Shown here: positions 4,550-48,907 of the stretch, one piece after another | Layout: every line of letters begins with the position of its first letter | Numbering within the stretch: position 1 is the first letter of the stretch | Source: Microcaldota archaeon | GTDB taxonomy: Archaea; Micrarchaeota; Micrarchaeia; Anstonellales; J096 | Length of the DNA: 64,000 nt | Direction: 5' to 3' | NCBI GenBank assembly: GCA_015522475.1 | Contig: WAMF01000023.1 | Span: forward strand, 1-64,000 | The notes under the pieces: model-generated | Databases searched by the model: none | Told to the model about the DNA's origin: nothing | What the model saw: only the letters and a program-made list of their open reading frames with translations | Made by a program: the position numbers and the translations under genes

Positions 4550-4728
4550 GCCGCGGTAGCTCAGTCGGCCAGAGCGCCAGACTCATAAGAGCTGAACTAT
4601 CAAACCTATGAGTGCTGAGCTTGCCTATTTTGCTCTTAAAAGAGAAAATAAAAAAGGAAGGCGGGCGTTGATGCAAAAAGACGCTCTGAGTCATCTGGAG
4701 GTCGGGGGTTCGAATCCCCCCCGCGGCA
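4550..4728 (+). tRNA. Elongator tRNA-Met (CAU) with a 105-nt intron
   Basis: Exon 1 is 4550-4587 and exon 2 is 4693-4728. The acceptor is GCCGCGG/CCGCGGC with discriminator A4728. The anticodon stem is CCAGA/TCTGG with loop CTCATAA, anticodon CAT at 4584-4586. The T arm is GGGGG-TTCGAAT-CCCCC. The intron (4588-4692) lies at the canonical 37/38 site. The bulge-helix-bulge is perfect: a 4-bp helix CTCA/TGAG is flanked by the 3-nt bulges TAA (4586-4588) and TCA (4691-4693), with an intron-internal helix GAGC/GCTC. The acceptor sequence fits elongator Met rather than initiator or Ile2. Confidence 0.93.
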
Positions 4729-4755: not shown

Positions 4756-5925
4756 CTATTCAGTACCACCCATTATCACTACTGGGTAAACTTCAGACAA
4801 GTTTGGAGGAAGAGGCATATTTCTGAAGTTGTTGTGCACGGCTAAGTTGACCAATCTTTCTATTTCTTCAGGGTGATCATCTTTTGAATCTGATGGGTTT
4901 TCTACTTTAATCTTACTTATTCTTCCCATAGAGTCAGTATATAATCTGACTATGAGCTTTACGCCATGTGGATATGCGCCATGTTTTTGGAGAAGTTGAA
5001 CCTTATCTTTTACACTCTTTCTAATCAGTTCCTCAACAAGATTCAACCTTCCCTTTGTAATGTTTTTTTTCTTCTTTTGATTTAGAAATCTTACTGGTGT
5101 TGGTCTTACTTTCTTTTTTGGTTCCAACTCTATTTTCCTTCCCCTCCTATTTTCAGCTATTTTACCAATATCTACGGTTGTGGGTCCACTAGGCTTTTTC
5201 CTGTGAGTTGGCCCTGTTACCTTGTTATTAGAAGGAGAGGTCCGCTTTCTTTTCTCTCCCCATTTAGAAGGGGTAGTTGCCGAGGATGTTGTAAGCGGTA
5301 TCTCTACATTTGTTTCTCTTCCGATGTGTATTTTTTGAAGCATCTTTTTGAACCAACTGAGCTTTTTTTGCTTTTTTTGGCTCGTGTTTGAAACAGTGTT
5401 TTGGTTATTATTTTGACTTGTATTCTGTGGACTTGTGTTTTGGTGGGTATTTTGAGTTGTAGTAGAAGCTGTGTTTGAGCTTGTGTTTGAGGCAACAGCT
5501 GTGTTGTTTGACCCCACCTTTCCTTTACCTTTTTTGTTATTCTTTTCTGACGTGCCTTTTAAGATCTTCTTTGTTTCCTCTTCTAGCTTTTTCTTTCCAG
5601 CTTCAATTTCACTCTCAGTGATTTTTGCCACAGTTTTTATTTGATTTTTTATCTGTTTCTCAGTGTCCAATACCTTATGGTAGTGCTTAAGTCCGGCGTA
5701 GTACACAATTCCTCCACTCACTAAGAATATGAGGGGAATGGTGGCGTACTTTCTGAATGCTGTGACCAGCTTGTGCCTTTTTTCCTTTCTTTCGTCTTCG
5801 ACTGCTTCTTTGAAGCCACTTATCTCTGCCCTGAGACGTTCGGCCCTTTTCTCAATAGCCTCTCGTCCTACTGCATGCATTTTATGTGCTTTTGGGCCTG
5901 AAGGATGTTCAACTTTCCGTGTCAT
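4756..5925 (-). CDS. Membrane-anchored protein with TonB/TolA-like C-terminal domain
   Basis: 389 aa with a bacterial energy-transducer architecture. A basic, charged N-terminal segment of about 50 residues (likely cytoplasmic) is followed by one membrane helix (IPLIFLVSGGIVYYAG, about 55-75). A long low-complexity linker rich in Asn, Thr, Ser, Gln and Lys follows. The C-terminal domain of about 85 residues reads VKLIVRLYTDSMGRISKIKV, then NPSD, a helix (EEIERLVNLAVHNNFRNM) and PLPPN ... YPVVI. That order (beta strand, D-x-x-G-x-I, strand, helix, P-L-P) matches the TonB C-terminal fold. A TATA-like TTTTTAA centred 27 nt upstream marks a leaderless start. No ExbB/ExbD partners are in the window, so the role is open: envelope tethering or scaffolding rather than proven energy transduction. 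Confidence 0.65.
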   Translation of the reverse strand: MTRKVEHPSGPKAHKMHAVGREAIEKRAERLRAEISGFKEAVEDERKEKRHKLVTAFRKYATIPLIFLVSGGIVYYAGLKHYHKVLDTEKQIKNQIKTVAKITESEIEAGKKKLEEETKKILKGTSEKNNKKGKGKVGSNNTAVASNTSSNTASTTTQNTHQNTSPQNTSQNNNQNTVSNTSQKKQKKLSWFKKMLQKIHIGRETNVEIPLTTSSATTPSKWGEKRKRTSPSNNKVTGPTHRKKPSGPTTVDIGKIAENRRGRKIELEPKKKVRPTPVRFLNQKKKKNITKGRLNLVEELIRKSVKDKVQLLQKHGAYPHGVKLIVRLYTDSMGRISKIKVENPSDSKDDHPEEIERLVNLAVHNNFRNMPLPPNLSEVYPVVIMGGTE

Positions 5926-6074
5926 ATGTTGATATTTTGTGTAGAACCCTTTTTAAGCTTATTGTTGCCTTTTTATTACAAATGAGTAGGATGTTGGCAA
6001 AATTAGCTCTTTTCTCTCCTTTACTCTTGCTGGAAAGGGCTTTCTTTTTAAATGGTTGGTCATGAATGAGGGCT

Positions 6075-7874
6075 ATGCCAAAGATCGGCGTTGAAATTCA
6101 CCAGCGCATCTTTACACACAAGCTCTTTTGCTCTTGCCCTTATCCCGAAGAGGAGCCCGTCGAGCGCTTGGACTGGCTGGACAGGCGCTTACATCCCGTG
6201 CTCTCTGAGATGGGTGAGATCGACGAGGCGGCTAGACTAGAGGCAGAGAAGGGCAGGCTTTATCAATACACGTTCAACGACAACATTTGTCTGGTCGAGA
6301 TGGATGAGGAGCCGCCCCATGAAGTTAACAGAGAGGCATTGAAAGTGGCTTTAAATGTGGCGCTGCAGATGGACATGCAGCCCGTGAACGTGCTTGTATT
6401 CATGAGAAAAATGGTGCTTGACGGCAGCAACACCTCCGGCTTCCAACGGACGGCTCTTCTGGCTATAGATGGCAAGCTCTCGACGAGTAGGGGTGATGTT
6501 GGCATTCAGACGCTGTGCCTCGAAGAGGAGAGCGCGGGCATAGAAGGCGAGGATAGTTTGCGAAAGCGATATAGCCTATTTAGGTTAGGCATTCCTCTCA
6601 TAGAAATTGCGACGACGCCGGACATAAAGGATGGAAAGCATGCTAGAGAGGTGTGCGAAAAGATAGGCCTTATATTGAGGAGCACAGGCAAAGCAGCTAG
6701 AGGTATAGGCACCATAAGGCAGGATTTGAATGTTAGCGTCGAAGGAGGAGCTAGAGTCGAGATAAAAGGAGCTCAAGAGCTTAACATGATAGCCAAGTGG
6801 GTCGACAACGAGATAAAAAGGCAAAAAGCACTCCTTACGCTCATAGCTGAGTTGGAATCGCGGGGCGCATATGAAGCCTTGAAAGCCGTTGATGAGAGCT
6901 ATTTCAAAGATGTCACTGACATAATTAAGCAAGCAGTTAAAGACGAAAAGGCCCTTATACGCCGCTTTTTGAAAGGCGATAGCATAGCTTTAGCTGTTAA
7001 GCTACCTAAGCACGCAGGTTTTTTGGGCAGGGAGCTAGCTTTACGTCGCTATGGCAGTGAACTTTCGGACTATGCTAAGCAGAGGGGTGTTGGAGGTATT
7101 ATCCATTCCGACGAAAAATTAGCGAAATATGGCTTAGATGACGAGGCTGTTAAAGCCATTAAGGAAGCGCTCGACGTGGCTGAGGACGACGCGTTTATAA
7201 TGGTTGTAGCATCGGCAGAGAAGGCTAAGCTGGCGTTAAGCGAGGCGCTCCGTCGAGCTAAAATGGCCTATGTTCCAAAAGAAACACGGAAGGCTCTTCC
7301 AGATGGCTCCACAGCTTACATGCGACCCTTGCCCGGAGCTGCGCGTATGTATCCTGAGACAGATGTGCCATATGTAAAGATAACGCCCTCTATGCTAGAG
7401 GAGGCAAAAGCCTTGGCGGAGTCTTACGAGGAGAAGGTTAAGAAGCTCAAGGCCTTGCTCAACAACGACGAGCTTGTCCAAAAAATGCTGCACAGTAAGC
7501 GCCTCAGCTTCTTTGAGCGCCTTGTGGGAAAAGGCATAGAGCCAAAGATGGCAGCCATTACGCTGGAGGATACACTCACAAAGCTTAGGCGTGAAGGCTG
7601 CCAGCCTATAGACGAGAATGTCGAGTGGGCTCTTCTTCTCTATTCAAAAGGCCATTTTACAAAGAAGACTGTAGAGGCTGCCTTGAAGGGCTTATGCGAG
7701 GGCAAGGCTAAGGCAGCTCTTCAGGCCAAGTTAGCAAAGTTGAGCAAAGCCGAATTAGAAAGCTTATTAAAAACTTATGGTGACAATATGAAAGCCATAC
7801 TTCGAGAGCATGGCTTAAGAGTCGATCCTGCCGAGCTGAAAAAGCTCATCGATGAGGCAAAAAAGAAGGCTTAG
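6075..7874 (+). CDS. gatE: Glu-tRNA(Gln) amidotransferase subunit E
   Basis: Archaeal GatE (599 aa) forms GatDE, which converts Glu-tRNA(Gln) to Gln-tRNA(Gln). The N-terminus MPKIGVEIHQRI starts the GatB/E cradle domain. VEMDEEPPHEVN, FMRKMVLDGSNTSGFQRT and IGTIRQDLNVSV are typical of the family. The region after about residue 280 contains the AspRS-like insertion, and the C-terminus is the YqeY-like tail (EGKAKAALQAKL). The start at 6075 is chosen because the box CTTTTTAAAT (6044-6053) is centred 26 nt upstream; an ATG at 6066 would sit too close. GatD is not in the window. The rpl11 gene follows 43 nt downstream on the same strand. Confidence 0.94.
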   Translation: MPKIGVEIHQRIFTHKLFCSCPYPEEEPVERLDWLDRRLHPVLSEMGEIDEAARLEAEKGRLYQYTFNDNICLVEMDEEPPHEVNREALKVALNVALQMDMQPVNVLVFMRKMVLDGSNTSGFQRTALLAIDGKLSTSRGDVGIQTLCLEEESAGIEGEDSLRKRYSLFRLGIPLIEIATTPDIKDGKHAREVCEKIGLILRSTGKAARGIGTIRQDLNVSVEGGARVEIKGAQELNMIAKWVDNEIKRQKALLTLIAELESRGAYEALKAVDESYFKDVTDIIKQAVKDEKALIRRFLKGDSIALAVKLPKHAGFLGRELALRRYGSELSDYAKQRGVGGIIHSDEKLAKYGLDDEAVKAIKEALDVAEDDAFIMVVASAEKAKLALSEALRRAKMAYVPKETRKALPDGSTAYMRPLPGAARMYPETDVPYVKITPSMLEEAKALAESYEEKVKKLKALLNNDELVQKMLHSKRLSFFERLVGKGIEPKMAAITLEDTLTKLRREGCQPIDENVEWALLLYSKGHFTKKTVEAALKGLCEGKAKAALQAKLAKLSKAELESLLKTYGDNMKAILREHGLRVDPAELKKLIDEAKKKA

Positions 7875-22647: not shown

Positions 22648-23601
22648 ATGATTAGGATTATCGTTATGAATATAATGCTTATAATTGCAAGTGGTGTTGC
22701 CGCAATGCTCTTTGCCAATTTTATTATGACTTTTGCGAGCTTTTCTACACGTCTCTCGATGAACATCTCAGACTTTTTTTACAAGTATTATGTTTTGCCT
22801 ATTCAGATGCATGCGGGCTATAACGTAGTGAATACGTTGACATACGCCATTTTAGCATTGCTTGGCCTTTATGTTGTTTATGTGTGGTTCAAGAAAGAAG
22901 GCTGGGCCTTTGATATGACCTTTGCTAAATCCCTGCTGCCATGGCTTCTTTTCGGCAGCACAAAACGTGTTATAACAGATGCTGTCTATGCAGGCACTCT
23001 TAGTGGTCCATTTTATTCACTTTATCAATGGAGTTGGTTTAACGTGAGCCCAGCCATCTATGTATTTACGGCCGTGCTTTTTTTCATAAGCTTTTGGCTT
23101 GAGAAGCGCCTTGGGAAGAAGGGGTTGTGTGAAAACATTGGTTGGCTCTTCTTTACCTTTCATTTCCTTCTTCTTTTGCCGGCTCTTCGATATCTTGGTC
23201 GTGCGCTTATAGTTGTGGGTCTTTGGCTTCTCGTTTATGGGGCTCTTCTTTCTCTGGAGCGCTTGCAACACTCAAAGTGCTGTGGTTGGGTGAAATCGCT
23301 TAAGCTTTCTAAGCTTTCTACATGGGCTGTTTTGGGACAGGCGCTCGACGGCGCAGCTACTTTCATAGGCGTGTCTTTTTTTGGCTACGGAGAGCAGCAT
23401 GTTCTCTCTTCGTTCATTGGCAATACGTTTGGCTACGGCGTCTTTTTCATCTTAAAGGTTATAATCGCGTTTGCTTTGGCGTGGTACGTCGAGAGATGTG
23501 CAGAGACTGAAGATGAGAAAAACATTATACTCCTAGCGGTGCTTACAGTGGGTGTGGCTCCTGGCTTTAGAGACCTTCTCCGTCTAACAGCGGGTGTTTA
23601 G
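22648..23601 (+). CDS. DUF63 family multi-pass membrane protein
   Basis: 317 aa with about eight hydrophobic segments. Family signatures of archaeal DUF63 (PF01889) are PWLLFGSTKRVITDAVYAG after the third segment and GQALDGAATFIGVSFFGYGE near residue 230, which carry conserved polar residues inside the membrane. The function of the family is unknown. The gene lies in tandem with dphB, 70 nt upstream of its start, and may be cotranscribed. The ATG at 22648 follows AAGGGAAACT. Confidence 0.82.
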   Translation: MIRIIVMNIMLIIASGVAAMLFANFIMTFASFSTRLSMNISDFFYKYYVLPIQMHAGYNVVNTLTYAILALLGLYVVYVWFKKEGWAFDMTFAKSLLPWLLFGSTKRVITDAVYAGTLSGPFYSLYQWSWFNVSPAIYVFTAVLFFISFWLEKRLGKKGLCENIGWLFFTFHFLLLLPALRYLGRALIVVGLWLLVYGALLSLERLQHSKCCGWVKSLKLSKLSTWAVLGQALDGAATFIGVSFFGYGEQHVLSSFIGNTFGYGVFFILKVIIAFALAWYVERCAETEDEKNIILLAVLTVGVAPGFRDLLRLTAGV

Positions 23602-29842: not shown

Positions 29843-31735
29843 GTGGAATCGCGTATTGAAGCAGAAGTTAGAAAAATCTTAGGGAGTGATGTAAGTAAAG
29901 TAGAGCTTTGGGGACCTATCGTCGCCGTCTATGTCAATAGCTTGGCTCCTTACTATGCAGACAGGTCTAAGCTTAAAGAGCTAGCAGGTCTTCTTAAGCG
30001 CAAGGTCGTCGTGAGGACAGAGCCCAATAGGCGCAGCTCGGCTGAGATCACACGCAGCTTAATAGAGGAGCTAGCTAAAGAAGCGAAAATAACGAATGTA
30101 TGGTTCAGCGAGCCTTTCGGTGAGGTTGTTATAGAAGCATACAAGCCGGGCATAGTTATAGGCAAAGGCGGGGAAAATCTCCACAAGATAGCTGCAGAGA
30201 CAGGTTGGAGCCCTGTTGTTAGGAGAACACCGACAATGCCGAGCTTTACAGTTGAAGGTGTCAGAAAAAGCACGATTGCTCAAGCAGAGTCGCGCAAAAA
30301 GTTTCTCCAAAGGTTGGGCCAGAAGCTCCTTAAAGCAGCTCCTGAGACGACGTGGATACGGGCTGTTATGCTCGGTGCCTTTAAAGAAGTAGGAAGGAGC
30401 GCTCTTCTTATACAGACGAAGCACAGCAAAATTTTGCTTGATGCTGGTGTGCATACGGGCTTAAACCCCCTCACTGCTGACAAGGAAGAACTCTATCCTT
30501 ACATAAACTTATTCAATTTTCCCGTTAACGAGCTTGACGGTGTAGTCATAAGCCACGCCCATATGGATCACATAGGCTTTCTTCCCTTCTTGTTTGCAGC
30601 AGGCTACAACGGCCCCGTCTATATGACGCCTCCAACGAGAGAACTCATGGCTCTTTTGCAGCTAGACTATTTGAACCTTCTCAGCAAGGCATACAATGCA
30701 AATCCACCATATACAAAGAAGGATATAAGCCACGAGCTGAACAACGTCATTCCTGTAGAGTACGGCGAGGTCGTCGATATAACACCAGAGGTAAAGCTCA
30801 CGCTCTACAACGCTGGGCATATTCTGGGAAGTGCCATCATCCACTTGCACATAGGAGAGGGAAAGCACAACGTCATATACACAGGAGACTTCAAGTTTGG
30901 CTACACGAAGCTGCTCAACCCCGCTAACGCCGATTTCCCAAGGGCAGATACTATATTCATGGAGTCGACGTACGGCGGAGCCAAAAACATCATGCCCAAC
31001 AGGCGCGAGAGCGACGAGAAGCTGATGAAAATCATCCGAGAGACCATCGAGAAGAAAGGCAAAGTGCTCATTCCTGTGTTTGCCGTTGGTAGGAGCCAAG
31101 AGGTGCTTTTGACCATAGAGAGCTTTGCCCGCGAAGACAAAGATTGGAACATTCCTATTTATATAGATGGCATGATTCTTGAGGCTTCAGCTATACATAC
31201 TGCTTATCCTGAATATCTAAAGACGAGCCTCCAGCGCCGTATTCTCAGCAATGACTCCCCCTTTGAGTTTGAGCACTTGAAGATAGCGCATGGCGTCGAT
31301 AAGCAAAGCATAACAGAAGGGGAACCAGCGGTTATACTTGCACCCTCTGGCATGCTTACAGGTGGGCCATCTGTCGAATACCTAAAGCTTTTGGCAGAAG
31401 ATGAGAAAAGCACGCTTATATTTGTCGGTTATCAGAGTGCCCTTTCATTAGGCGCTAAAATACAACAGGGCATAAGAGATTTTCAATTGCCAACAGACGA
31501 TAAAATAAAGCACTACACGCTTAAGATGCGCGTTGAAACGGTTGAGGGCTTCTCCGGCCACAGCGACAGAAGGCAGTTGCTTGCGTGGATAAAGAATCTC
31601 AAGAGCAAGCCCCGCCGCGTCTACACAATGCATGGCGATTTTTCGAGGACAGAAGAGTTGGCCAACGGCATACACAAGCTCTTTGGCATACACGCCGAAA
31701 CGCCATGGGACATGGAAGCCAGACGACTGAGATAA
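29843..31735 (+). CDS. fttA: Archaeal termination/cleavage nuclease FttA (aCPSF1)
   Basis: 630-aa beta-CASP ribonuclease that cleaves nascent RNA and terminates archaeal transcription. The N-terminal KH domains include VIEAYKPGIVIGKGGENLHK. The metallo-beta-lactamase core has ISHAHMDHIGFLPFL (HxHxDH), GHILGSAIIHL and YTGDFKFG. The beta-CASP region has ESTYGG, IPVFAVGRSQEVLL, ILAPSGMLTGGPSVEYL and the C-terminal VEGFSGHSDRRQL. The length matches the family. The start is GTG with AGAGGGG upstream. Stands alone, as usual for this gene. Confidence 0.96.
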   Translation: MESRIEAEVRKILGSDVSKVELWGPIVAVYVNSLAPYYADRSKLKELAGLLKRKVVVRTEPNRRSSAEITRSLIEELAKEAKITNVWFSEPFGEVVIEAYKPGIVIGKGGENLHKIAAETGWSPVVRRTPTMPSFTVEGVRKSTIAQAESRKKFLQRLGQKLLKAAPETTWIRAVMLGAFKEVGRSALLIQTKHSKILLDAGVHTGLNPLTADKEELYPYINLFNFPVNELDGVVISHAHMDHIGFLPFLFAAGYNGPVYMTPPTRELMALLQLDYLNLLSKAYNANPPYTKKDISHELNNVIPVEYGEVVDITPEVKLTLYNAGHILGSAIIHLHIGEGKHNVIYTGDFKFGYTKLLNPANADFPRADTIFMESTYGGAKNIMPNRRESDEKLMKIIRETIEKKGKVLIPVFAVGRSQEVLLTIESFAREDKDWNIPIYIDGMILEASAIHTAYPEYLKTSLQRRILSNDSPFEFEHLKIAHGVDKQSITEGEPAVILAPSGMLTGGPSVEYLKLLAEDEKSTLIFVGYQSALSLGAKIQQGIRDFQLPTDDKIKHYTLKMRVETVEGFSGHSDRRQLLAWIKNLKSKPRRVYTMHGDFSRTEELANGIHKLFGIHAETPWDMEARRLR

Positions 31736-33399: not shown

Positions 33400-34434
33400 T
33401 TATTTAGCAAGATCTATTTCATACAATTTATTGGGTTGTATGCTTATTTTGTTTCGAGATATATCTATGCCGGTAGCGTAACCGGGTATGAACGAATCTA
33501 CTCCTTCCTTTGATGTGCTATCAAAAAGAGCAAAACTTAAGCTTTTTACTCCTGTTTTATGAGGAAGTACTGTAGTAAGATAGTATCCTAAGCCATTTAC
33601 ACTTCCCATCAATCCATCTGCTACGAGCCACTTGTTTTTCCATTTGAAAGCGGTGGCAGCGTGGTAATGAGATATTAATGGATCGTTTTCGCGGATATTC
33701 TTGTCGTAGTGAAGATCCACAAACAAAAGTGCTGATGGAATGTTGAGCTTTTTGAATACTGCAAGAAATAAGGCTGCTTCGTTAAGGCAGACACCTTCTT
33801 TCTTATTAAGGAGTGTTTCTACATCGATGTACATTTTTCCTTCATCTACTGCATAGGGATGAAGGCCTTCATTCATATACTTTACAGCTTTGATTATATC
33901 CTCCAACGTTTGCATGCCGTTGAATCGTCGTATGAATGACAAAATTTCAGCATTTAACTGAGGCCCGCTTAAAATAAGGACATTTGGTTGGTCTCCATTG
34001 AAGACAGGATATATCAAAATATCCTTTAATTGCGGTTGAGGCATTACATTTATTTCTAGGATTTCTCCACTTCTAATCTGCCTGTTCTCCTTTTCTTTAT
34101 ACTCTTTGTGCTTTTCATTTATCTCGTCTGATTCAGACCTTTTGATGTGATATGCAGCAGGTGTAGCAGGATTTGCAAGATCTATCTTCGAATAAGAGGA
34201 GTATGAATTTAAGTAGATGTAAACACCGAATAGAATGCTTGCAGTTGTGAATAAGAGGGGAGTAATAAGTTGCTTAACGCGTAAGCGCCTCTCTTTTGTT
34301 TCTTTTAGATGAGGAGATATTAAAGGAACCTGCTTGTTTGATATCTCTTTTTGCCCTTTGATTCTATTCTTTTCATCCTGTAAGGATGAGCTGGCTTGCT
34401 TTGTCTTTTTCCTTAACTCCTTTGTACTAGCCAT
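33400..34434 (-). CDS. Membrane-anchored transglutaminase-like protein
   Basis: 344 aa. A basic N-terminus (to about residue 55) is followed by one membrane helix (ITPLLFTTASILFGVYIYLN), placing the rest outside. The C-terminal 170 residues have a transglutaminase-like triad: Cys in KKEGVCLNEAALFLAVFKKL, His in SHYHAATAFKWKNKW and Asp in LVADGLMGSV. Such domains are cysteine proteases, amidases or crosslinkers; an envelope role is likely from topology. TATA-like TTTATAAG/GTTTAAATG sit 20-30 nt upstream. Confidence 0.75.
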   Translation of the reverse strand: MASTKELRKKTKQASSSLQDEKNRIKGQKEISNKQVPLISPHLKETKERRLRVKQLITPLLFTTASILFGVYIYLNSYSSYSKIDLANPATPAAYHIKRSESDEINEKHKEYKEKENRQIRSGEILEINVMPQPQLKDILIYPVFNGDQPNVLILSGPQLNAEILSFIRRFNGMQTLEDIIKAVKYMNEGLHPYAVDEGKMYIDVETLLNKKEGVCLNEAALFLAVFKKLNIPSALLFVDLHYDKNIRENDPLISHYHAATAFKWKNKWLVADGLMGSVNGLGYYLTTVLPHKTGVKSLSFALFDSTSKEGVDSFIPGYATGIDISRNKISIQPNKLYEIDLAK

Positions 34435-36497: not shown

Positions 36498-37526
36498 CTA
36501 AGAGGAGGTCTCATTCTTGGCATTCTTGGATGCTTCCTTTATAGAGCCCACAGAAAGCTCATATTTTAGAATCCAATCGCCGCTAACAGTGACATTACCC
36601 ACCAAGCTCACATTGCTGCCAGCAGATAGAGGCTCGCGGAGTGTTAAAGGTATACTACCTATTTTTGGAACATATACAATGGCCTTTTCTACAAAGGTGT
36701 AGTTGAAAGGCAAATCTAGAGGCTTAGGGCTAAGAAGGTAAGAAGGCTTAGGTTTAGCGTCTTTGAAGTCCTGCTTGAGCTCTGTTATATTTGTGAAGTT
36801 TTTGTTTACAATGACGTAGCCGTTGCCAACATAGCTTGTGTAAGGTGTTTCATGGGCGTAGTTCGTCAATACAATGTCGCTTATGTGTGCTAGCTTCTCA
36901 CCTCTAAAGGCCGTTCTATTCTCAAAGGGCAGGGTGTAGTTGTAGAAGGCCTCGCTCACGTTGATTATTTGAGCGGTCTCGTTGACGCCTTTGTTTAAGA
37001 AGAATAATCCCGATGGATAAATCTCGACTATGGACCCATTCTTCATAGCTACTTTGCCCGAGAGCGCCACTTTTTTGCTGAGGGGGATGAAGCGCTTTAA
37101 TTTAAGTTCCACGTCGTAGTAAGCAGGTATTGTTCCATTGGCTAACGTGACATTGACGACAGTAAGCTTTTCTGTGAACACGGCTGAAACATTGCCAGCT
37201 GAGACGGCAGAGAGGTTTGATAACTTTTCCAGCCCTTCGTTGGCCATGTATGTGTTTTCTAGCTGTATGACGGGTATGTCTGCTTTTCTCATGGCATTGG
37301 CGAAATCTGCGTCGTCAGTTGAAACCATTTCTATTGACGATACGTTGGCTGTGAATATGGCTGGCTCGATTATGGGCTTAGTCTCCACAACCTTCCTCTT
37401 CTCTACTTGGTGTATAAAGAAGGAGTAGAGCATCTCTCCTAAGAAAAGCAGCGTAACTATCCATATGGCAAGTTGCTTGAGCAGATTTTTGTCGAGCAGC
37501 TTAGCTTTTATGCTATTCCAATCCAT
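36498..37526 (-). CDS. Membrane-anchored surface protein dense in N-glycosylation sequons
   Basis: 342 aa. A cytosolic N-tail of about 18 residues precedes a membrane helix (LAIWIVTLLFLGEMLYSFFI). The extracellular region of about 300 residues carries 16 N-x-S/T sequons by my count. It is beta-rich with no catalytic motif seen. ATG at 37526 has GAGGG about 5 nt upstream; a longer opening to 37595 passes through the promoter. It diverges from the FKBP gene, and the A/T box GCCTTAAAATACC (37560-37572) may serve both. Confidence 0.68.
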   Translation of the reverse strand: MDWNSIKAKLLDKNLLKQLAIWIVTLLFLGEMLYSFFIHQVEKRKVVETKPIIEPAIFTANVSSIEMVSTDDADFANAMRKADIPVIQLENTYMANEGLEKLSNLSAVSAGNVSAVFTEKLTVVNVTLANGTIPAYYDVELKLKRFIPLSKKVALSGKVAMKNGSIVEIYPSGLFFLNKGVNETAQIINVSEAFYNYTLPFENRTAFRGEKLAHISDIVLTNYAHETPYTSYVGNGYVIVNKNFTNITELKQDFKDAKPKPSYLLSPKPLDLPFNYTFVEKAIVYVPKIGSIPLTLREPLSAGSNVSLVGNVTVSGDWILKYELSVGSIKEASKNAKNETSS

Positions 37527-37604
37527 TCTATCCCTCGAAGCGAAGCATATTGGGGCAGTAAGCCTTAAAATACCATAGGCAGAAAGGCAAGGCAAGGTGG
37601 AAAT

Positions 37605-38719: not shown

Positions 38720-39847
38720 TTAGCTACTGTTGCTGCCATTTGCTTGGCTGCTTGCTTGATTTGACTTATTTAAGTTCGAGCTCTTTGAGCCGTTCATTCC
38801 TTTTCCAGCTTTCATATGGGCACCTGCACCCGCTTCGGCTCTTACTTCGGCATGAAGTGAACTTAGTGCTTGTCTAAGTTCTTTGTAGGCAGAGATTACG
38901 TCACCCTTAGCTTCTCTTAATTGTTCAGCGCTTGCATTGCAGTCGTTAATCAGGGCTTTTGCGCTTTCTATCTTTGCCTCAAAGGTTTGGAGAGCTTCTC
39001 TTGTTTTAGACATGTCAAAGCCTTTTGCTTCGAACTTTGCTGTGGCATTTTCCAACCTTTGGCCGGCTCTTTCAGCTCTGTTTACAACTGCCTTTAAAGC
39101 TGTGCATTGTCCATATATTGCTACTTCTTTGGCATCCTCTTTAGCCGCTTTCCATCCCTCCCTTATTTTTTGTACACCTGCTCTTACTTCGTCTATGCTT
39201 GTTGCATTGTGTATACTTTGGTTGAGCTCTTCTAAGTTCTCGATGTGAAGTTGTATCTTGGCTAGGATTTCTGCCTTTGTTTCATTGTCTATATGGGAGT
39301 TTTGCTGAATGAAGCTGGAGATTTGTTGGAGCTCACCTATGGCTACGTTTAAGCCTCTTGCAATGTACTCCTTTGAAAGGTTGAGCTTTTCCTCCGGCGT
39401 AGCATTGGCCATCTTCTTCCGGAGCATTGCTTTCTCTTTTATATAGGATTGGATTCTCGTTCTCATTTCAGCTCTCTTTTGAAGGAAGCGCTGTCTTGCC
39501 TCTTTCCATGCTTCAACTGTCTTTGGCATTTTCTGCCTGAACTGACTGACGAGTGTTCTATATCGAGCAGCTCTTTCAGGAGGGACGCGCGTTAAGATGG
39601 GCTTTACTGGCGCTATAACAGGCCTTATTTGGTTTTTCCTCGTTTGAGGTATGCCTTCCCCTGAGACACGCTCAGAGATGTTCGCGCTTCCATTTACGCC
39701 TCCAGCTTGTGCATGCATCGATGTATTTACACTTACATTACCGCCTTTTGTGTTGACCATAGCGCTGCCTTTAACAAAGCCACCCCATGCGCTTGTAAGG
39801 CCTATAGCCAACACAACCAACACAATCATACTTATGTAGCTTTTCAT
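38720..39847 (-). CDS. Secreted helical protein, 375 aa, with sequons
   Basis: Not recognised. The N-terminal signal sequence (KSYISMIVLVVLAIGLTSAW) is followed by a Gly/Asn/Val-rich segment and then a long helical coiled-coil-like region (WKEARQRFLQKRAEMRTRIQ). The C-terminus is Asn/Ser-rich. About a dozen N-x-S/T sequons are present, so it is a candidate glycoprotein. ATG at 39847 follows GGTGAT; GTTTATAAAC (39880-39889) is about 26 nt before the expected transcript start. Operon with the lipoprotein. Confidence 0.68.
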   Translation of the reverse strand: MKSYISMIVLVVLAIGLTSAWGGFVKGSAMVNTKGGNVSVNTSMHAQAGGVNGSANISERVSGEGIPQTRKNQIRPVIAPVKPILTRVPPERAARYRTLVSQFRQKMPKTVEAWKEARQRFLQKRAEMRTRIQSYIKEKAMLRKKMANATPEEKLNLSKEYIARGLNVAIGELQQISSFIQQNSHIDNETKAEILAKIQLHIENLEELNQSIHNATSIDEVRAGVQKIREGWKAAKEDAKEVAIYGQCTALKAVVNRAERAGQRLENATAKFEAKGFDMSKTREALQTFEAKIESAKALINDCNASAEQLREAKGDVISAYKELRQALSSLHAEVRAEAGAGAHMKAGKGMNGSKSSNLNKSNQASSQANGSNSS

Positions 39848-40017
39848 GCTATCACCCAACGAGCCCTCGCATTACTTGTTTATAAACATTCTTTAGCAAC
39901 CCTTTAGGAAAACTTTAGTAAAGCTTTAGAGCAAGGTGTTGGGCTTAAAGAAGGAGACAGCTTCCCCTTTGTAGAACCATAAGTTTATAAACATTTTTCC
40001 ACACATTACAACTTTAT

Positions 40018-40965: not shown

Positions 40966-43083
40966 TTAGAGGCAAAGCACTACCATAGCCACAGCTAGCT
41001 CTTCGATGCGCCTTTCCTTTGCGGCAAGGGCAAAGGGATTATCCAATGAGAATTTGCCCTCTCTAACCTCTTGCTTCTTCTTCTCAGCTAATGAAGCAAG
41101 GGCTTTTCTTGAAGCGCCTTTGACATCAGGATCTTCATCATAAGCGAGCTCTGATAAAGTATACAAGAACTCTTCTTGTAAGCCAAGCTCGCCTATGAGC
41201 TTGGCTGCCGCTACTTTCTTCCCCCATTTATCACTCATCGCTGCCCATTTTATCAATTCCTCTACTCTCTCCTTTTTCTCCTCTTCCATAGCTTCATACT
41301 CAGCCTTTACATCGTCTAATCCAGCATTTTCCCACGTATCCTCAGCTGCTTTTCTCACACCTAGATCACCGTCAAATTTCAATATCATCAACTCGGCCTT
41401 AAACTCCTTCTGTAAGCTAAGCTCATCTATGAGCTTGGCTGCTACATAGTGTCTCTCTCCATCCTCCCATCTCACCACATCCCATATAAATCCTTTTACT
41501 CGCTCTTTTTCCTCTTCTTTCATTCCTCCATACTCAGCCTTTACATCGTCTAATCCAGCATTTTCCCACGTATCCTCAGCTGCTTTTCTCACACCTAGAT
41601 CACCGTCAAATTTCAATATCATCAACTCGGCCTTAAACTCCTCGTGCAAGACTAGCTCGCCTATGAGCTTAGCTACTACATATCGTTTCTCTCCATCCTC
41701 ACTTCTCGCCACATCTCTTAGCAACTCTTTCAGCCGCTCTTTCTCTTCCACCTTCATCCCTTCATAAACGGCTTTCACATCCTCAATGTCATATTCCCAC
41801 ACCCATTCAGCTGCCTGTCTCACATCCTCATCAATGTCAAACGCCAATAACAGGAGTTCAGCTTTGAACTCCTTCTCTAAGCCAAGCTCGCCTATGAGGT
41901 TAGCTGCGGCTTCCCGCCTGCTAGAGCTGCCATTCCTCGCTGCTTCTCTTGTTAGCATCTTCAGCCGCTCTTTCTCTTCTTCATCCATAGCTTCATACTC
42001 AGCCTTTACATCACCTAAATTAGCTTTCTCCCATGCATCCTCAGCTGTTTCTCGCACATACGGATCACCATCAAACGTCAACAACAGCAGTTCAACTCTG
42101 AACTCCTCCTGCAGACCTAGCTTACCTATAAGCTCAGGCGCTCCATATCGCCTCGGATCGTCATCACTTCTCGCCACATCTCTTAGCAACTCTTTCAGCC
42201 GCTCTCTATCCTTCACCTTCATCTTCTCATAGACAGCTTTCACATCCTCAAAGCCAGCTTTCTTCCACACATCTTCAGCAGCATCTACCACATCCCACTC
42301 ATCAAACATTAGTAACATCAACTCGGCTTTAAACTCCTCTTGCAATCCCAACTCGCCTATGAGCTTGGCTGCTGCATAGCGTCTCTCTCCATAGTCACTT
42401 CTCGCCGCATCCCATATAAATCCTTTCACTCGCTCTTTTTCGTCTTCTTTCATCTGCTTATACTCAGCCTTTACACCAACTAAGTTAGCATTCCTCCATG
42501 CAGACCTAGCTCTTTCCCCAACATCCTTATAGCCATCAAACATCAGCAGCATCAACTCTGCTTTGAATTCCTCTTGCAAGCCAAGCTCACCTATGAGATT
42601 AGCTGCCGCTACTCGGCTTTTCCGGTAATCACTCCTTGCTGCTTTCCTTAGTACAGTTATAGCAAAGGCCTTCTTTACATCCACCTCACCTTTTATCTCC
42701 TTTAACCCAGATAAGGCAGCTAAGGCCATTACTGCTTTAGCTGTTTTTTCATCGTTTAAGGGCAGATTGAGGCCATTTCTATCCAACCAATCTAACCACT
42801 TTCCAAGCTCTTCATTCTCAAATTCAGGTGCTTTTATCCACCTCCACTCAGCCTCACGGCTGATGATGCCGACGAGGTCAAGGGCCTTTTCATTATCCTG
42901 CTTGTAAATGGCATAAAGGGCCTCTCCTAACTTTCTCCAATCATTCCCTGCTTGTCTTAACAGCTTAGCAACCTCTTTCTTCAGCTGCTCTTGTCGCTCT
43001 TCTAAGGGCTTAGCATCTGTCCTTTGCGGCCCTTCCACTTGCTTTCTTTTCTTTCCCTCCCCCTTCAACCCCTCCTTGCTCAT
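40966..43083 (-). CDS. HEAT-like repeat protein 1 of 6 (705 aa, 7 modules)
   Basis: Member of a local paralogous family. It has a Lys/Glu/Gln-rich N-tail, a common N-terminal domain (LLRQAGNDWRKLGEALYAIY to AFAITVLRKAARSD), then seven helical modules of about 77 residues. Each has a core like AAKLIGELGLQEEFKAELML, then FDG..VR.AAEDAWE, then DVKAEYEAMKEEEKERVKEL. The C-terminus carries the family motif NPFALAAKE ... MVVLCL. All modules are of the A type (the KAEYE form). Two modules share a 114-nt identical DNA stretch. No enzymatic motif; a solenoid for protein binding is inferred. A promoter just after the preceding gene suggests independent expression. Confidence 0.75.
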   Translation of the reverse strand: MSKEGLKGEGKKRKQVEGPQRTDAKPLEERQEQLKKEVAKLLRQAGNDWRKLGEALYAIYKQDNEKALDLVGIISREAEWRWIKAPEFENEELGKWLDWLDRNGLNLPLNDEKTAKAVMALAALSGLKEIKGEVDVKKAFAITVLRKAARSDYRKSRVAAANLIGELGLQEEFKAELMLLMFDGYKDVGERARSAWRNANLVGVKAEYKQMKEDEKERVKGFIWDAARSDYGERRYAAAKLIGELGLQEEFKAELMLLMFDEWDVVDAAEDVWKKAGFEDVKAVYEKMKVKDRERLKELLRDVARSDDDPRRYGAPELIGKLGLQEEFRVELLLLTFDGDPYVRETAEDAWEKANLGDVKAEYEAMDEEEKERLKMLTREAARNGSSSRREAAANLIGELGLEKEFKAELLLLAFDIDEDVRQAAEWVWEYDIEDVKAVYEGMKVEEKERLKELLRDVARSEDGEKRYVVAKLIGELVLHEEFKAELMILKFDGDLGVRKAAEDTWENAGLDDVKAEYGGMKEEEKERVKGFIWDVVRWEDGERHYVAAKLIDELSLQKEFKAELMILKFDGDLGVRKAAEDTWENAGLDDVKAEYEAMEEEKKERVEELIKWAAMSDKWGKKVAAAKLIGELGLQEEFLYTLSELAYDEDPDVKGASRKALASLAEKKKQEVREGKFSLDNPFALAAKERRIEELAVAMVVLCL
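41295..41408 (-). repeat. 114-nt identical internal repeat (copy 1)
   Basis: Identical to 41529-41642, offset 234 nt (78 codons, one HEAT module). Neighbouring modules are more diverged, which points to a recent unit duplication or gene conversion. Confidence 0.85.
41529..41642 (-). repeat. 114-nt identical internal repeat (copy 2)
   Basis: Second copy of 41295-41408, base for base. Lies within the same HEAT gene, one module away. Confidence 0.85.
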
Positions 43084-43146
43084 CCTTTCACCTGTAGAAT
43101 TAGGAAAGACAATGCTTAAAAGCCACTACGAGCAGAGCGCTACCAT
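43081..43146 (-). promoter_or_regulatory. HEAT cassette junction: stop motif plus promoter (copy A)
   Basis: Near-identical to 47042-47107 (about 66 nt). Read on the minus strand it contains the end of the upstream gene (codons for the terminal LCS and the TAG), then the TATA-like GGCTTTTAAGC. A leader with a CCTGTAG-like end (CTAATTCTACAGG) and GAAAGG follow, just before the next ATG. Confidence 0.7.
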
Positions 43147-46023
43147 CGCCGAGAGCAACCTCTCGCTTAGCTTGACGTCTTCGCTAAGGGCGAAGGGGTT
43201 GGGTAAAGAGGCTTTACTTTTCTTTATTTCATCTTTTATCCCTTGAATTCTATCTCTCCACAAGCTTCCCTTAGATAAGTTTAACGCATCTAAAAGTTGT
43301 ATAGCAGCACTCTGTAAATAAGTTAAACTTCTTGTTAAAAACATATTAGTCCCTAGTATCTCTAAGATGGTGTCTCTTACCCTTCTTTTTTCCTCCTCAC
43401 TCATCTGCTCATACTCGCTTTTCACATCACCAAATCCAGCAGCCTCCCATACCTCCCAAGTCGCTTCTCTCATATTACTATATTCATATCTATCAAACCT
43501 CAACACCATCAACTCAGGCTTAAACTCCTCCTGTAAGCCAAGTTCGCCTATAAGCCTAACTGCTGCATATCGCCTTTTCGCCTCATCACTCCTCGCCGCT
43601 TCCCTTATCTGCTCTTTAACCATTTCTTTCTCTTTCTTCTTCATCTGCTCATACTCGCTTTTCACATCACCTAAGCCAGCTTTCTTCCATGCATCCTCCG
43701 CTAGTTCTCCCACCTCAACATAATCAAACATCAATAACATCAACTCAGCCTTAAACTCTTCTTGCAAGCCCAGCTCACCTATGAGCTTTGCCACTGCATA
43801 GCGTTTTATCCATTCCCTACTCCTCGCCGCTTCCCTTATCTGCTCTTTAACCATTTCTTTCTCTGTCTTCTTCATCTGCTCATACTCGCTTTTCACATCA
43901 CCTAAGCCAGCTTTCTTCCATGCATCCTCAGCAGCTCTCCTCACACCCACAACATAATCAAACCTCAACACCATCAACTCAGGCTTAAACTCCTCCTGTA
44001 AGCCTATCTCGCCTATAAGCTTAGGTGCTGCATATCGCCTTTTCGCCTCATCACTCCTCGCCGCTTCCCTTATCTGCTCTTTAACCATTTCTTTCTCTTT
44101 CTTCTTCATCTGCTCATACTCTTCCTTTACATCATCTAACTCAGCTTTATCCCATGCCTCTTCAGCCACTTCTCTCACACCCACAACATAATCAAACATC
44201 AACAGCATCAACTCAGGCTTAAACTCCTCCTGTAAGCCAAGCTCGCCTATAAGCTTAGGTGCTGCATATCGCTTTACCCAATCACCACTCATCGCAGCAT
44301 CTATTATCCTTTTCTTCGTCTCATTGGCCCATCCTTTCCTTTTCTTATCCAGCTCAGCCATCACACTACTTCCTTTCCTTCTCAATTCTTTATTCCACTT
44401 ACCTAGAGCTTCAGCCGCTGCTTCGACTACACTTGAGTGTTGTCTATCGAACGCTAGCTCAATAAGCACATCTAAGAATTCCTCCTGTAAACCTAGCTCA
44501 CTTATAAACTTAGCCGCTGCTCTTCGCCTCCCCCAACCACTCATCGCAGCATCTCTTATCCTTTTCTTCGTCTCATTGGCCCATCCTTTCCTTTTCTTAT
44601 CCAGCTCAGCCATCAAACTACTGCCTTTACTCTTCAATTCTTTATTCCACTTACCTAAGAATTCAGCTGTTGGAGCAGAGATCCTGCTATATTCATCCAA
44701 TGCTAACTCGATAAGCACATCTAAGAGTTCCTCCTGTAAACCTAGCCCCATTATAATCTTAGCTGTTGTATATCGCGCATAGAACTCATCTTCTCTCGCC
44801 CATTTTCTTATCCATTCTTTCACCTCTTCACTCCAGCCCTTCTTTCTCTTCTCCAGTTCATTCATTACACTACTACCTTTCCTTCTCAATTCTTTATCCC
44901 ACTTACTAAGGGCTTCAACAGATAAGTTTGCTACACATGGAGCGCTACGTATATATGGATCAAATGCTAACTCTATCAACTCCTCTAAGAATTCCTCTTG
45001 CTGCAAACCCAATTCACTTATGAGCTTAGGTGCTGCTCCTCGTATATATAGGTTATCTATGCTATAGTCCCCTGCCACTTTTCTTATCCATTCTTTCACC
45101 TCTTCACTCCAGCCCTTCTTTCTCTTCTCCAGTTCATTCATTACACTACTACCTTTCCTTCTCAATTCTTTATCCCACTTACCTAGAGCTTCAGCCGCTG
45201 CTTCGAATACATTTGGGTGTCCATCGAATGCTAGCTCCATTAACTTATTTAAAAATTCCTCCTGTAAGCCAAGCTCGCCTATGAGCTGAGCTGCTGCCTC
45301 TCGGGTATATGTACATTCACTCGTCGCAGCATCTCTTATCCTTTCCTTTAATTTTTCACTCCAGCCCTTCTTTCTCTTCTCCAGTTCATTCATTACACTA
45401 CTACCTTTCCTTCTCAATTCTTTATCCCACTTACCTACAGCTTCAGCAGCTGCTTCGAGTACACTTGGGTGTCTATCGAACGCTAGCTCGATAAGCACAT
45501 CTAAGAGTTCCTCCTGTAAACCCAGCTCACCTATGAGCTTAGCTGCTGCTTCTCGCCTATGATCGCGTTTGCTCCTCGCTGCTTCTCTCAGCACAGTGAT
45601 GGCAAAGCCCTTCTCCACATCCTCTTCATTTTCTATCTCTCTTAAACCAGAGAGAGCAGCTAAGCTTAGCACTACCTTAGCTGTTCTTTTATTGTTTAAG
45701 GGCAGATAGAGGCCATTCCTATCCAACCGATCAAGCCACTTTCCAAGCTCTTCATCCTCCAATTTAGGTGCATTTATCCACCTCCACTCCGCCTCACGGC
45801 TGATGATGCCGACGAGCTCAAAGGCCTTTTTCTTATCTTGCTTATAAACAGCATAAAGCTCCTCGCCTAACTTCCTCCAATCATTGCCTGTTTGCCTCAG
45901 CAGCTTAGCTGCTTCCCTCTTCAGCTCTTCCTCCCTCTCCTCGAGAGGGTTAGCTTCTGCTCCTCGCTGCTGCTCTTTCTTCACCTGTTTTTCCTGTTGC
46001 TTTAGCCCTTCCTTGCCACGCAT
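43126..46023 (-). CDS. HEAT-like repeat protein 2 of 6 (965 aa, 9 modules)
   Basis: The largest paralogue. It has the same N-terminal domain (LLRQTGNDWRKLGEELYAVY to AITVLREAARSK). It then has five B-type modules (core LLDVLIELAFDRHPSVLEAA, then KWDKELRRKGSSVMNELEKR and KKGWSEEVKEWIR) and four A-type modules (ELMLLMFDYV, AEDAWKKAGLGDVKSEYEQM). A single protein therefore joins two repeat classes in blocks. The C-terminus is PNPFALSEDV ... MVALCS. DNA of adjacent modules is almost identical (for example around 43620-43720 and 43850-43950). A solenoid scaffold is inferred. TTTTAAGCC (minus strand, about 46055-46063) and GGGCGAGAG precede the start. Confidence 0.75.
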   Translation of the reverse strand: MRGKEGLKQQEKQVKKEQQRGAEANPLEEREEELKREAAKLLRQTGNDWRKLGEELYAVYKQDKKKAFELVGIISREAEWRWINAPKLEDEELGKWLDRLDRNGLYLPLNNKRTAKVVLSLAALSGLREIENEEDVEKGFAITVLREAARSKRDHRREAAAKLIGELGLQEELLDVLIELAFDRHPSVLEAAAEAVGKWDKELRRKGSSVMNELEKRKKGWSEKLKERIRDAATSECTYTREAAAQLIGELGLQEEFLNKLMELAFDGHPNVFEAAAEALGKWDKELRRKGSSVMNELEKRKKGWSEEVKEWIRKVAGDYSIDNLYIRGAAPKLISELGLQQEEFLEELIELAFDPYIRSAPCVANLSVEALSKWDKELRRKGSSVMNELEKRKKGWSEEVKEWIRKWAREDEFYARYTTAKIIMGLGLQEELLDVLIELALDEYSRISAPTAEFLGKWNKELKSKGSSLMAELDKKRKGWANETKKRIRDAAMSGWGRRRAAAKFISELGLQEEFLDVLIELAFDRQHSSVVEAAAEALGKWNKELRRKGSSVMAELDKKRKGWANETKKRIIDAAMSGDWVKRYAAPKLIGELGLQEEFKPELMLLMFDYVVGVREVAEEAWDKAELDDVKEEYEQMKKKEKEMVKEQIREAARSDEAKRRYAAPKLIGEIGLQEEFKPELMVLRFDYVVGVRRAAEDAWKKAGLGDVKSEYEQMKKTEKEMVKEQIREAARSREWIKRYAVAKLIGELGLQEEFKAELMLLMFDYVEVGELAEDAWKKAGLGDVKSEYEQMKKKEKEMVKEQIREAARSDEAKRRYAAVRLIGELGLQEEFKPELMVLRFDRYEYSNMREATWEVWEAAGFGDVKSEYEQMSEEEKRRVRDTILEILGTNMFLTRSLTYLQSAAIQLLDALNLSKGSLWRDRIQGIKDEIKKSKASLPNPFALSEDVKLSERLLSAMVALCS

Positions 46024-46066
46024 TTCTCTCGCCCATAAGCTTATGAAAGGTAAGGCTTAAAACCCA

Positions 46067-47044
46067 CTACGAGCAGAGCACTGCCATTGCTAAAAGCACT
46101 GGCTCATAGAGTTCCTTCTTTGCAGCAAGGGCAAAGGGATTGGCTAAGCGAGCCTTGCCTTCCTTTATCTTAGCCTTTTTCTCTTCGAGCTTTTTACCCT
46201 TCTCCTTGGCCCACGAAGCAAGCGCTTCTTTTGCAACTTCCATATTATTCTTATCGGCTAGCTCTATTAGTTTATCTAAGAACCCCTCCTGCAACCCAAG
46301 CTTCCATATCAACTTAGGTGCTGCTTCTCGCCTCCACAAGTCATTACTTCTAACCGCTTCTCTTATCAACTCTTTTACTCGCTCTTTTTCCTCTTCTTTC
46401 ATTTCCTCATACACAGCTTTTACATCACCAAATCTAACTTTCCATGCATCCTCGGCTGCTTTTTTTGTATCGTTCCATTCATCAAGCATCAACAGCATCA
46501 ACTCTGCTTTAAGATCCTCCTGCAACCCAAGCTCGCCTATGAGCTTAGCTGCTGCTTCTCGCTTCCAGAACGGATCACTCCTCGCTGCTTTCCTTAGCAC
46601 TGTTATAGCAAAGGCCTTATTTACGTCATCTTCGCTTTCTATCTTCTTTAAGCCGGAGAAGGTTGCTAAGGCTAGCACTGTCTTAGCTATTTTTCCACTA
46701 TTTAAGGGCAGATTGAGGCCATTTCTGTCCAACCAATCAAGCCACTTTCCAAGCTCTTTATCCTCTAATTTAGGGCCTTTTATTCCCTTCCTCAACTTGT
46801 CGTCGTGACTAATAGCTTGGATAAGCCCAAAGGCCTTCTCCTTATCCTCTTTATAGATGGTGTAAAGAGCTCCACCCAGCTTTTCCCAATCATTCCCTAA
46901 TTGTCTCAGCAGCTTAGCCGTTTCCCTCCTTAGCTTTAGTTCTTCTCGTTTTCTCTCTTGTGTTTCTTCTATAGGTTCAGCCTTTGCTTGCTGCCCTTTA
47001 ATGTGTTTTTCTTTCTTCCCTTGCTTCAGCTCCTCCTCGCTCAT
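46067..47044 (-). CDS. HEAT-like repeat protein 3 of 6 (325 aa, 2 modules)
   Basis: The shortest form. It has the common N-terminal domain (LLRQLGNDWEKLGGALYTIY to AITVLRKAARSD), one A module (AKLIGELGLQEDLKAELMLL), a partial second module (PKLIWKLGLQEGFLDKLIEL), then the terminal motif ANPFALAAKKELYEPVLLAM with LCS as the last residues. It shows that the N-domain and C-motif are constant while the repeat number varies. The promoter is part of the duplicated junction at 47042-47107, with GGCGAAAGG before the ATG. Confidence 0.73.
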   Translation of the reverse strand: MSEEELKQGKKEKHIKGQQAKAEPIEETQERKREELKLRRETAKLLRQLGNDWEKLGGALYTIYKEDKEKAFGLIQAISHDDKLRKGIKGPKLEDKELGKWLDWLDRNGLNLPLNSGKIAKTVLALATFSGLKKIESEDDVNKAFAITVLRKAARSDPFWKREAAAKLIGELGLQEDLKAELMLLMLDEWNDTKKAAEDAWKVRFGDVKAVYEEMKEEEKERVKELIREAVRSNDLWRREAAPKLIWKLGLQEGFLDKLIELADKNNMEVAKEALASWAKEKGKKLEEKKAKIKEGKARLANPFALAAKKELYEPVLLAMAVLCS

Positions 47045-47107
47045 CCTTTCGCCTGTAGAATTAGGAAAGACAATGCTTAAAAGCCACTATGAGCAGAGCA
47101 CTACCAT
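47042..47107 (-). promoter_or_regulatory. HEAT cassette junction: stop motif plus promoter (copy B)
   Basis: Second copy of the junction at 43081-43146 with only a few substitutions. TATA-like GGCTTTTAAGC at about 47074-47084 lies 30-40 nt upstream of the ATG at 47044. Confidence 0.7.
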
Positions 47108-48907
47108 GGCTAAGAGCAAATTTTTAGTAAGCTCTCTTCGCTTATTGGAGGCAAAGGGGTTGGCTAAGGGAGCTTTACCCTTCTTTATCTCAGTAATCCT
47201 TCTTTTCCTGTCCTTAATCCATGAGTTCAGTGCTTCTGCAGCCTCGGGTCTATAACGGGCAAGGCTTCTTAACTCATCCAAGAACTCCTCTTGTAAGCCA
47301 AGCTCGCCTATGAATTTAACCGCTGCTTTTTGTCTCTGCTTATCGCCACTCATCAGTGCATCTCTTATTTTTTCCTTCACCTCTTCACTCAGTCCTATAT
47401 CTCTTTTCTCTAATTCATCCAGCATACTACTGCCTTTCTTCCTGAGCTTTTTGTCCAAGTTGGCAAGGACTTCAGCTGCTGCTATAGCTACATTGGTGTT
47501 CCTATCTAGTACTAACTTCAACAATTCATCTAAGAGCTCTTCCTGCAACTCTAACCCATCTATAAGCTTAACCGCCGCTATTCGGTTGTATTTATTGTCG
47601 CTTCTTATTCTTTCTCTTATCCTTCTCTCCACTTCCTTAACCCATCCTTTCCTTCTCCTCTCCATCTCCACTATCAAACTGCTTCCTTCCTTTTTCAGCT
47701 CTTCATTCCACTTAGCGAGGGCTTCAGCCGCTATTATAGTTACATAAATTCCGTGAACGGTCTCGTCTTTATTAGTCACCAACCCTATCAGCTCATCTAA
47801 GAACTCTTCCTGCAGACCAAGCTCGCCTATCAGCTTAACCGCCGCTTCTCGCCTTCTTAAATCATTACCCTTAGCTGCTTCCCTTATCAATTCCTTTACT
47901 TGCTTCTTCTCTTCTTCGTTCATCTTCTTGTATTCAGCTTTTACGCTACCTAATCCAGCCTTCTTCCATGCCTCATCAGCCGCTTCTCTCACAGCCTTAG
48001 CCTCATCGAACACCAACAGCATCAACTCAGGCTTGAACTCTTCCTGCAAGCCCAGCTTGCCTATAAGCTTAACCGCCGCTTCTCGCCTTTCCCATACGTC
48101 ACTCCTAACTGCTTCTCTTGCGAGCTCTAGTAGTTCCTTTTTCTCTCTGTTATTAAGTCCTTCATATACTCGTTTGGCATCGAATTCCAGCCCCTTCTTC
48201 CCCTTCTTATCCTTAATACCATTTTCATTGACCCATGCTGCATGAGCCAACTCAGACACCTTCATCTTAGCTAACTGAGTAGGAGCGGTTTCATCAGCCG
48301 CGTAAACTTTCATATTATATTCGTCAAACATTGCAAGGAGAGCCTCAGGTAGGCATGGCTTGTACATACCTAAAAAGTACATGAGCATTGCCCCTATACG
48401 TCGATATCCTCCTTCATCCTGTCTCAGGAGTTCTTTGGTGATGGGCACTAGTCCTGCCTTGACTATATCCTTATCACTATTGAATGCCTTGATGCCTGAG
48501 AGAGTGGCTAAACCCAGAATAGCCTTGCTTGTATCCTCTTCTAACTTTTTTAAGGATTGCGGCATCTTTCTCTTAATTAATACATCTGTGGTAAGCTCTT
48601 CGAAGGCCTTTTTGAAGATTCTTTTTTCTTCCTCTGTTTTGAGCTTTATTCCCCTATGCCCATTAATTTTGTTGATAGCTTCTAGAAGCCTTAAAGCTGC
48701 CTTTTTATCTTGCTTGTAGATAGCGTAGAGCCGCTTCCCAACTTCTAACCATTCTCCATTACTCTCTCTTAATAGCTTTTTTGCCTCTTTTTCTGACTCA
48801 TCTCTTTTATCATTTAATGTTGGTTTTTTCTTCAAAATTTTATCACTTCTTTTGGCTGTTTCTTGGAGGAACACTCTCAATTTACTCATGCAATACTTCC
48901 AACTCAT
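47087..48907 (-). CDS. HEAT-like repeat protein 4 of 6 (606 aa, 4 clear modules)
   Basis: Directly downstream of the VWA gene and coupled to it. The ATG at 48907 lies 4 nt after the VWA stop codon (48912-48914), and GGAGG in the VWA 3' end serves as ribosome-binding site. The N-terminal domain is more divergent (LLRESNGEWLEVGKRLYAIY, then LATLSGIKAFNSDKDIVKAG). A unique region (about 200-260) is followed by one A module, one transition module and two B modules (KKGSSMLDELEKRDIGLSEE). The C-terminus is ANPFASNKRR ... MVVLCS. Coupling to the VWA gene marks it as the paralogue most surely tied to the ATPase system. Confidence 0.75.
   Translation of the reverse strand: MSWKYCMSKLRVFLQETAKRSDKILKKKPTLNDKRDESEKEAKKLLRESNGEWLEVGKRLYAIYKQDKKAALRLLEAINKINGHRGIKLKTEEEKRIFKKAFEELTTDVLIKRKMPQSLKKLEEDTSKAILGLATLSGIKAFNSDKDIVKAGLVPITKELLRQDEGGYRRIGAMLMYFLGMYKPCLPEALLAMFDEYNMKVYAADETAPTQLAKMKVSELAHAAWVNENGIKDKKGKKGLEFDAKRVYEGLNNREKKELLELAREAVRSDVWERREAAVKLIGKLGLQEEFKPELMLLVFDEAKAVREAADEAWKKAGLGSVKAEYKKMNEEEKKQVKELIREAAKGNDLRRREAAVKLIGELGLQEEFLDELIGLVTNKDETVHGIYVTIIAAEALAKWNEELKKEGSSLIVEMERRRKGWVKEVERRIRERIRSDNKYNRIAAVKLIDGLELQEELLDELLKLVLDRNTNVAIAAAEVLANLDKKLRKKGSSMLDELEKRDIGLSEEVKEKIRDALMSGDKQRQKAAVKFIGELGLQEEFLDELRSLARYRPEAAEALNSWIKDRKRRITEIKKGKAPLANPFASNKRRELTKNLLLAMVVLCS

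Follow-up and report, generated by a model that had tools for sequence, protein, structure and literature searches.

Can an archaeon carry a protein of the TonB/TolA type, and what would such a protein do there? The question is raised by a single gene near the start of a 64,000-nucleotide stretch of DNA from a Microcaldota archaeon (the window, C23:1-64000), part of a 0.91 Mb genome assembled in 23 contigs and 88% complete. The TonB/TolA head is known from didermic bacteria, in which it operates with ExbB/ExbD or TolQ/TolR, and a sequence-only reading of the gene had proposed a bacterial-style transducer with a membrane helix, a low-complexity linker and a TonB-C-like domain. The open reading frame is a real coding gene: its 389 codons exceed the longest stop-to-stop run (274 codons) found across 30 order-2 random 64-kb sequences, and its mean in-frame codon log-odds of 0.103 stands above the highest value among 26 shadow ORFs (0.028). 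This score resembles those of five other scored genes in the window (range 0.068–0.182) and amounts to 0.13–0.19 per 180-base segment, the low-complexity linker excepted (0.016 and –0.020). Promoter and terminator scanning gave results no better than shuffles. The gene and the parts of its product are as follows:

4756..5925 (-), whole gene, 389 aa, ATG start (ORF; coding score)
5746..5925 (-), residues 1-60, highly charged N-terminus of net charge +7, predicted helical (helix 12-60 in the full-length model)
5686..5745 (-), residues 61-80, single membrane helix (one hydrophobic segment starting at residue 61)
5530..5685 (-), residues 81-132, predicted long helix past the membrane (helix 67-132 in the full-length model)
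5386..5529 (-), residues 133-180, N/T/S/Q-rich low-complexity linker (composition; pLDDT <50 over 141-184)
5326..5385 (-), residues 181-200, short predicted helix, Lys-rich (full-length model)
5068..5325 (-), residues 201-286, basic linker, mostly disordered (composition; full-length model)
4759..5067 (-), residues 287-389, C-terminal domain with predicted TonB/TolA-like fold (AlphaFold2, Foldseek, VIA-align)

The membrane helix and the low-complexity linker are thus both present, the former as a segment from residue 61 and the latter as N/T/S-rich and Lys-rich stretches. By the positive-inside rule the helix is probably oriented with its N-terminus inside, because the preceding flank is more positive than the following one, and residues 1–60 are probably cytoplasmic. 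The inverse arrangement, in which the Lys-rich linker and the C-terminal domain would lie in the cytoplasm and hold nucleic acid, the ribosome or a cytoplasmic partner at the membrane, appears improbable. Many basic tails bind nucleic acids, and the net charge of +22 over linker residues 186–290 fits such a role and is unusual for an outside segment; moreover, N-glycosylation sequons occur in the linker at the frequency expected from its composition (p 0.37–0.48), and so provide no argument for an external location. Because the linker is basic and not enriched in sequons, a cytoplasmic C-terminus stays under consideration, but the asymmetry of the flanks favours the N-in orientation, and the head of bacterial TonB and TolA is an outside domain.

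The C-terminal domain was modeled in two AlphaFold2 runs without relatives, one of residues 271–389 alone (pLDDT 67.1, pTM 0.51) and one of the whole protein (pLDDT 58.3), both of low confidence. The former comprises H21-44, E52-60, E66-72, H82-97 and E107-114 in model numbering, and the latter H283-314, E325-330, E336-342, H352-367 and a two-residue strand near 379. The helix-strand-strand-helix order is common to both models, with a third strand of 8 residues in the domain model versus 2 in the full-length model. In the domain model the predicted elements map to the gene as follows:

4984..5055 (-), residues 291-314, helix 1
4936..4962 (-), residues 322-330, strand 1
4900..4920 (-), residues 336-342, strand 2
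4825..4872 (-), residues 352-367, helix 2
4774..4797 (-), residues 377-384, strand 3

For TonB, the topology of the C-terminal domain is described as alpha1-beta1-beta2-alpha2-beta3 in a review on the Ton motor (PMC7014051). Structural comparison pointed to the same family. Among the best 10 Foldseek matches of the domain model in the PDB (350,542 chains), ranks 1–4, 6–8 and 10 are TonB, TolA or FusB C-terminal domains and ranks 5 and 9 are not; the best match has an E-value of 0.015 and a probability of 0.97, and the TonB/TolA matches have TM-scores by target length of 0.31–0.53. For the full-length model, all of the best 12 matches are C-terminal domains of TonB, TolA, FusB or HasB (best E 0.081). 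Every Foldseek E-value, for both models, is above 0.001. VIA-align of the domain model reached Z >= 5, over the whole of that model, in 11 of 995 chains, where a Z below 8 can reflect just a common arrangement: the first ten among the matches listed are TonB or TolA C-terminal domains (Z 5.3–6.2; rmsd 3.2–4.7 over 82–95 residues), and the eleventh is a DUF5043 protein (Z 5.2). A viral fold library contained no clear match for the predicted structure.

These comparisons allow for a different account, a possible though doubtful one, in which the orphan gene product is a protein of the surface or membrane, and its small alpha/beta domain has no kinship with TonB and TolA but matches them through a simple, common arrangement. 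The pLDDT values of 58–67, the Foldseek E-values and the lack of sequence support are consistent with this account, and the unrelated folds DUF5043, OsmC and EsaG attain VIA-align Z-scores of 4.4–5.2. On the other hand, two differently bounded predictions rank the same narrow superfamily first among all 350,542 chains, and the order of elements matches that of TonB. We therefore consider that the C-terminal domain rather probably has a TonB/TolA-like fold, as predicted at low confidence. Structure prediction was the check that the sequence-only reading had named for its TonB-C-like domain, and the outcome was a domain of TonB/TolA type at that same low confidence.

The sequence of the domain does not add to this result. 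Searches of Pfam, NCBIfam and PHROGs profiles, and phmmer against PDB sequences, gave chance-level matches only; MCD_N (E 0.06–0.17) and ribosomal L30 (E 0.042) were dismissed on this ground. An NCBIfam match to EbpS over residues 34–187 (E 1.8e-05; 23.8 bits versus a cut-off of 300) was rejected as compositional, because it spans the anchor, the helix and the low-complexity linker. The protein has no match above cut-off to the TonB_C profile (PF03544) and none to the TolA profile (PF06519); the latter does find its positive control, E. coli TolA (E 4e-40). However, E. coli TolA itself matches PF03544 at just E 0.053 and TonB_2 at 0.0019, such that a missing profile match is weak evidence against kinship. 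Smith-Waterman alignment to five TolA and six TonB sequences was not significant (Z –0.2 to 2.0), and the best case (L041) was equalled by 2 of the 235 chunks of the window. With hhalign, 5 of 235 background chunks and 1 of 100 shuffles equalled the score against TonB, whose top local match is a hairpin at residues 324–341 (score 16.6), and alignment to TolA was plain background (64 of 235 chunks and 25 of 100 shuffles equally high). The hhalign test is itself weak, as true TolA sequences missed the TonB profile and true TonB sequences likewise missed TolA; because the two families fail to find each other, the sequence test speaks neither for nor against kinship. Of the TonB-C-like domain proposed earlier, the predicted fold is what stands, with the profile, PDB-sequence and pairwise comparisons not clearly above background.

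The gene was found in a single genome, and at the sensitivity of these searches its product is an orphan. Matches to the full protein occurred in 0 of 38 other genomes and to residues 271–389 in 0 of 9 at E <= 10; order-level C-terminal matches in 6 of 83 other genomes (E 0.024–0.13) were weak, three of them with stops, and were set aside as chance. Scanning of viral contigs yielded no relative, and neither did a peptide pattern scan against 84,980 species, each represented by one genome; starting from a single sequence, both scans can reach only close relatives. The gene is convergent with a tRNA at 4550-4728 (+) and divergent from a 602-aa gene at 6066-7874, which we take to be GatE. In a genome of the same genus (G001) the 602-aa gene and the next four genes are conserved, and the upstream position is held by an unrelated 207-aa gene, presumably TYW3-like. 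The tRNA directly downstream of the orphan gene scores 58.3 bits against the Rfam tRNA model, has 107 bases unaligned at the anticodon loop after CAU and was not called by ARAGORN; it is probably an intron-containing tRNA-Met. Within the window, no second exact copy (>=16 bases) of its 3′ end was found that would indicate integration at a tRNA target.

This distribution bears on whether the archaeon acquired a bacterial TonB or TolA gene from which the protein derives. The predicted fold and domain order, the archaeal relatives without a homologue, and the different upstream gene in the related genome would all fit acquisition. However, similarity to TonB or TolA sequences is not significant, the pattern scan of close relatives across 84,980 species was empty, and the codon score is like that of the neighbours. 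FttA-type and DUF63 genes are archaeal, and the window contains both (at 29843-31735 an FttA-type gene, which carries a KH_TffA domain, and at 22648-23601 a DUF63 gene). The earlier suggestion of transfer from bacteria finds no support, given host-like codon use, archaeal neighbours and the lack of a TonB or TolA sequence match; we regard a bacterial origin as very improbable, and recent transfer as unlikely.

Elsewhere in the window, a 344-aa protein at 33400-34434 (-) has a basic N-terminus, a membrane helix and a Transglut_core domain (E 4.4e-05), an anchor layout that matches that of the orphan gene, and a likewise low G+C content (0.37). The proteins at 36498-37595 (-) and 38720-39859 (-) have an N-terminal hydrophobic segment, 16 and 15 N-x-S/T sequons, respectively, and no Pfam match, and are possible surface glycoproteins. 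A run of adjacent large genes occupies 40966-60446 (-); those at 40966, 43126, 46067 and 57144 have Lys-rich N-termini that look similar by eye, HEAT repeats are over cut-off in 40966 and 43126 and sub-threshold in 46067, 57144 and 58179, and a 945-aa AAA/STAND-like NTPase lies within the run at 53248-56085.

A transducer in the Ton sense would call for a motor and for outer-membrane receptors. Profiles for these partners, all of which gave matches in the E. coli control, were searched in the genome itself and, ExbD and TonB_2 apart, in 301 genomes of the phylum. The genome, at its 88% completeness, has no match at E <= 1 to ExbB (MotA_ExbB, PF01618) or ExbD (PF02472), profiles that also represent the TolQ/TolR-type partners; TonB_C gave no match in it or in any of the 301 genomes, and TonB_2 none in it at E <= 10. 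Across the phylum, MotA_ExbB above cut-off, the receptor Plug domain (the present genome included) and Omp85 were each found in 0 of 301 genomes. Elsewhere in the phylum, two genomes have sub-threshold PF01618 fragments (E <= 0.001), G097 in L042 (E 2.1e-4, 26 profile positions) and G009 in L043 (E 3.1e-4, 54 positions). SxxxH in the membrane helix marks TonB, and the sole SxxxH of the orphan protein lies at residue 347, outside that helix. A working Ton-like energy transducer whose motor has diverged too far for recognition would agree with the architecture, those fragments being in genomes other than this one; the empty ExbB and ExbD searches, the lack of Plug and Omp85 and the membrane helix without SxxxH make it the least probable account considered here. 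The transducer of the sequence-only reading, for which a genome search for ExbB/ExbD or further TonB-C proteins had been proposed, is therefore unlikely. Nor was its suggestion of an unusual envelope borne out; the missing Omp85 and Plug matches speak against a bacterial-type outer membrane. For comparison, published work describes an S-layer as the outer cover of an archaeon in culture that belongs to the former Micrarchaeota (PMC11329633), and a double membrane in Ignicoccus, which serves as host to a DPANN archaeon (review, PMC6349945).

The best, if tentative, reading of these data is a lineage-specific, membrane-anchored tether beneath the archaeal surface layer, equipped with a TonB/TolA-like binding head. 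The single-pass protein would have its N-terminus inside, in an orientation predicted at low confidence, and the long helix together with a flexible basic linker of ~155 residues would hold the small C-terminal head away from the cytoplasmic membrane. There, the head would most likely bind a partner, either at the surface layer or below it. Members of the TonB/TolA superfamily bind partners via beta-strand addition, and by analogy the grip could perhaps involve adding a strand to the partner's sheet. Layers or partners might thereby be tethered passively, without a proton motor of ExbB/ExbD type. A tether between cell layers had been among the earlier suggestions; the TonB/TolA-like layout agrees with it, and the tethering itself is what we infer. 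A related reading, possible though somewhat less likely than the tether, is that of an archaeal counterpart of TonB/TolA, convergent or anciently related, with a motor-free stalk and a head gripping proteins of the surface layer or of a partner cell; the stalk would cross the space under the S-layer in a lineage in which bacterial-type outer-membrane machinery was not detected. If the fold is true in an archaeon without motor or outer-membrane receptors, then both the head and the anchor-spacer-head layout would be usable motor-free, and the protein would offer a concrete means of asking how small archaea join their membrane to a surface layer or to another cell.

No archaeal TonB-like protein appeared in literature titles and the starts of abstracts, a coverage that lies outside most subscription journals and bioRxiv, and none is described in the excerpts available of PMC3600143 or PMC12505986. 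By the tests made, the orphan protein belongs to neither TonB nor TolA, and the likeness to each lies in layout and in the predicted, plausible fold of the head. Like TonB, it has an N-terminal membrane anchor and a long flexible spacer, its C-terminal domain is predicted to run helix-strand-strand-helix-strand, and the H. pylori and E. coli TonB C-terminal domains are among its best PDB matches. Unlike TonB, whose spacer is Pro-rich, its spacer is N/T/S/K-rich; it also carries a 60-residue N-terminus before a membrane helix that is devoid of SxxxH, and neither a profile match nor ExbB/ExbD or receptors were found. The same differences apply to the TonB paralogues FusB and HasB, the C-terminal domain structures of which are within the best 12 full-length matches. 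In contrast to TolA, there is no PF06519 match and no match of TolQ/TolR type, and pairwise alignments are at background. Nevertheless, TolA domain III structures occupy VIA-align ranks 2–9 for the domain, and the protein, like TolA, is predicted to have a long helix after the membrane helix and a small C-terminal head, a layout that would be similar overall, with a helix shorter than that of TolA domain II.
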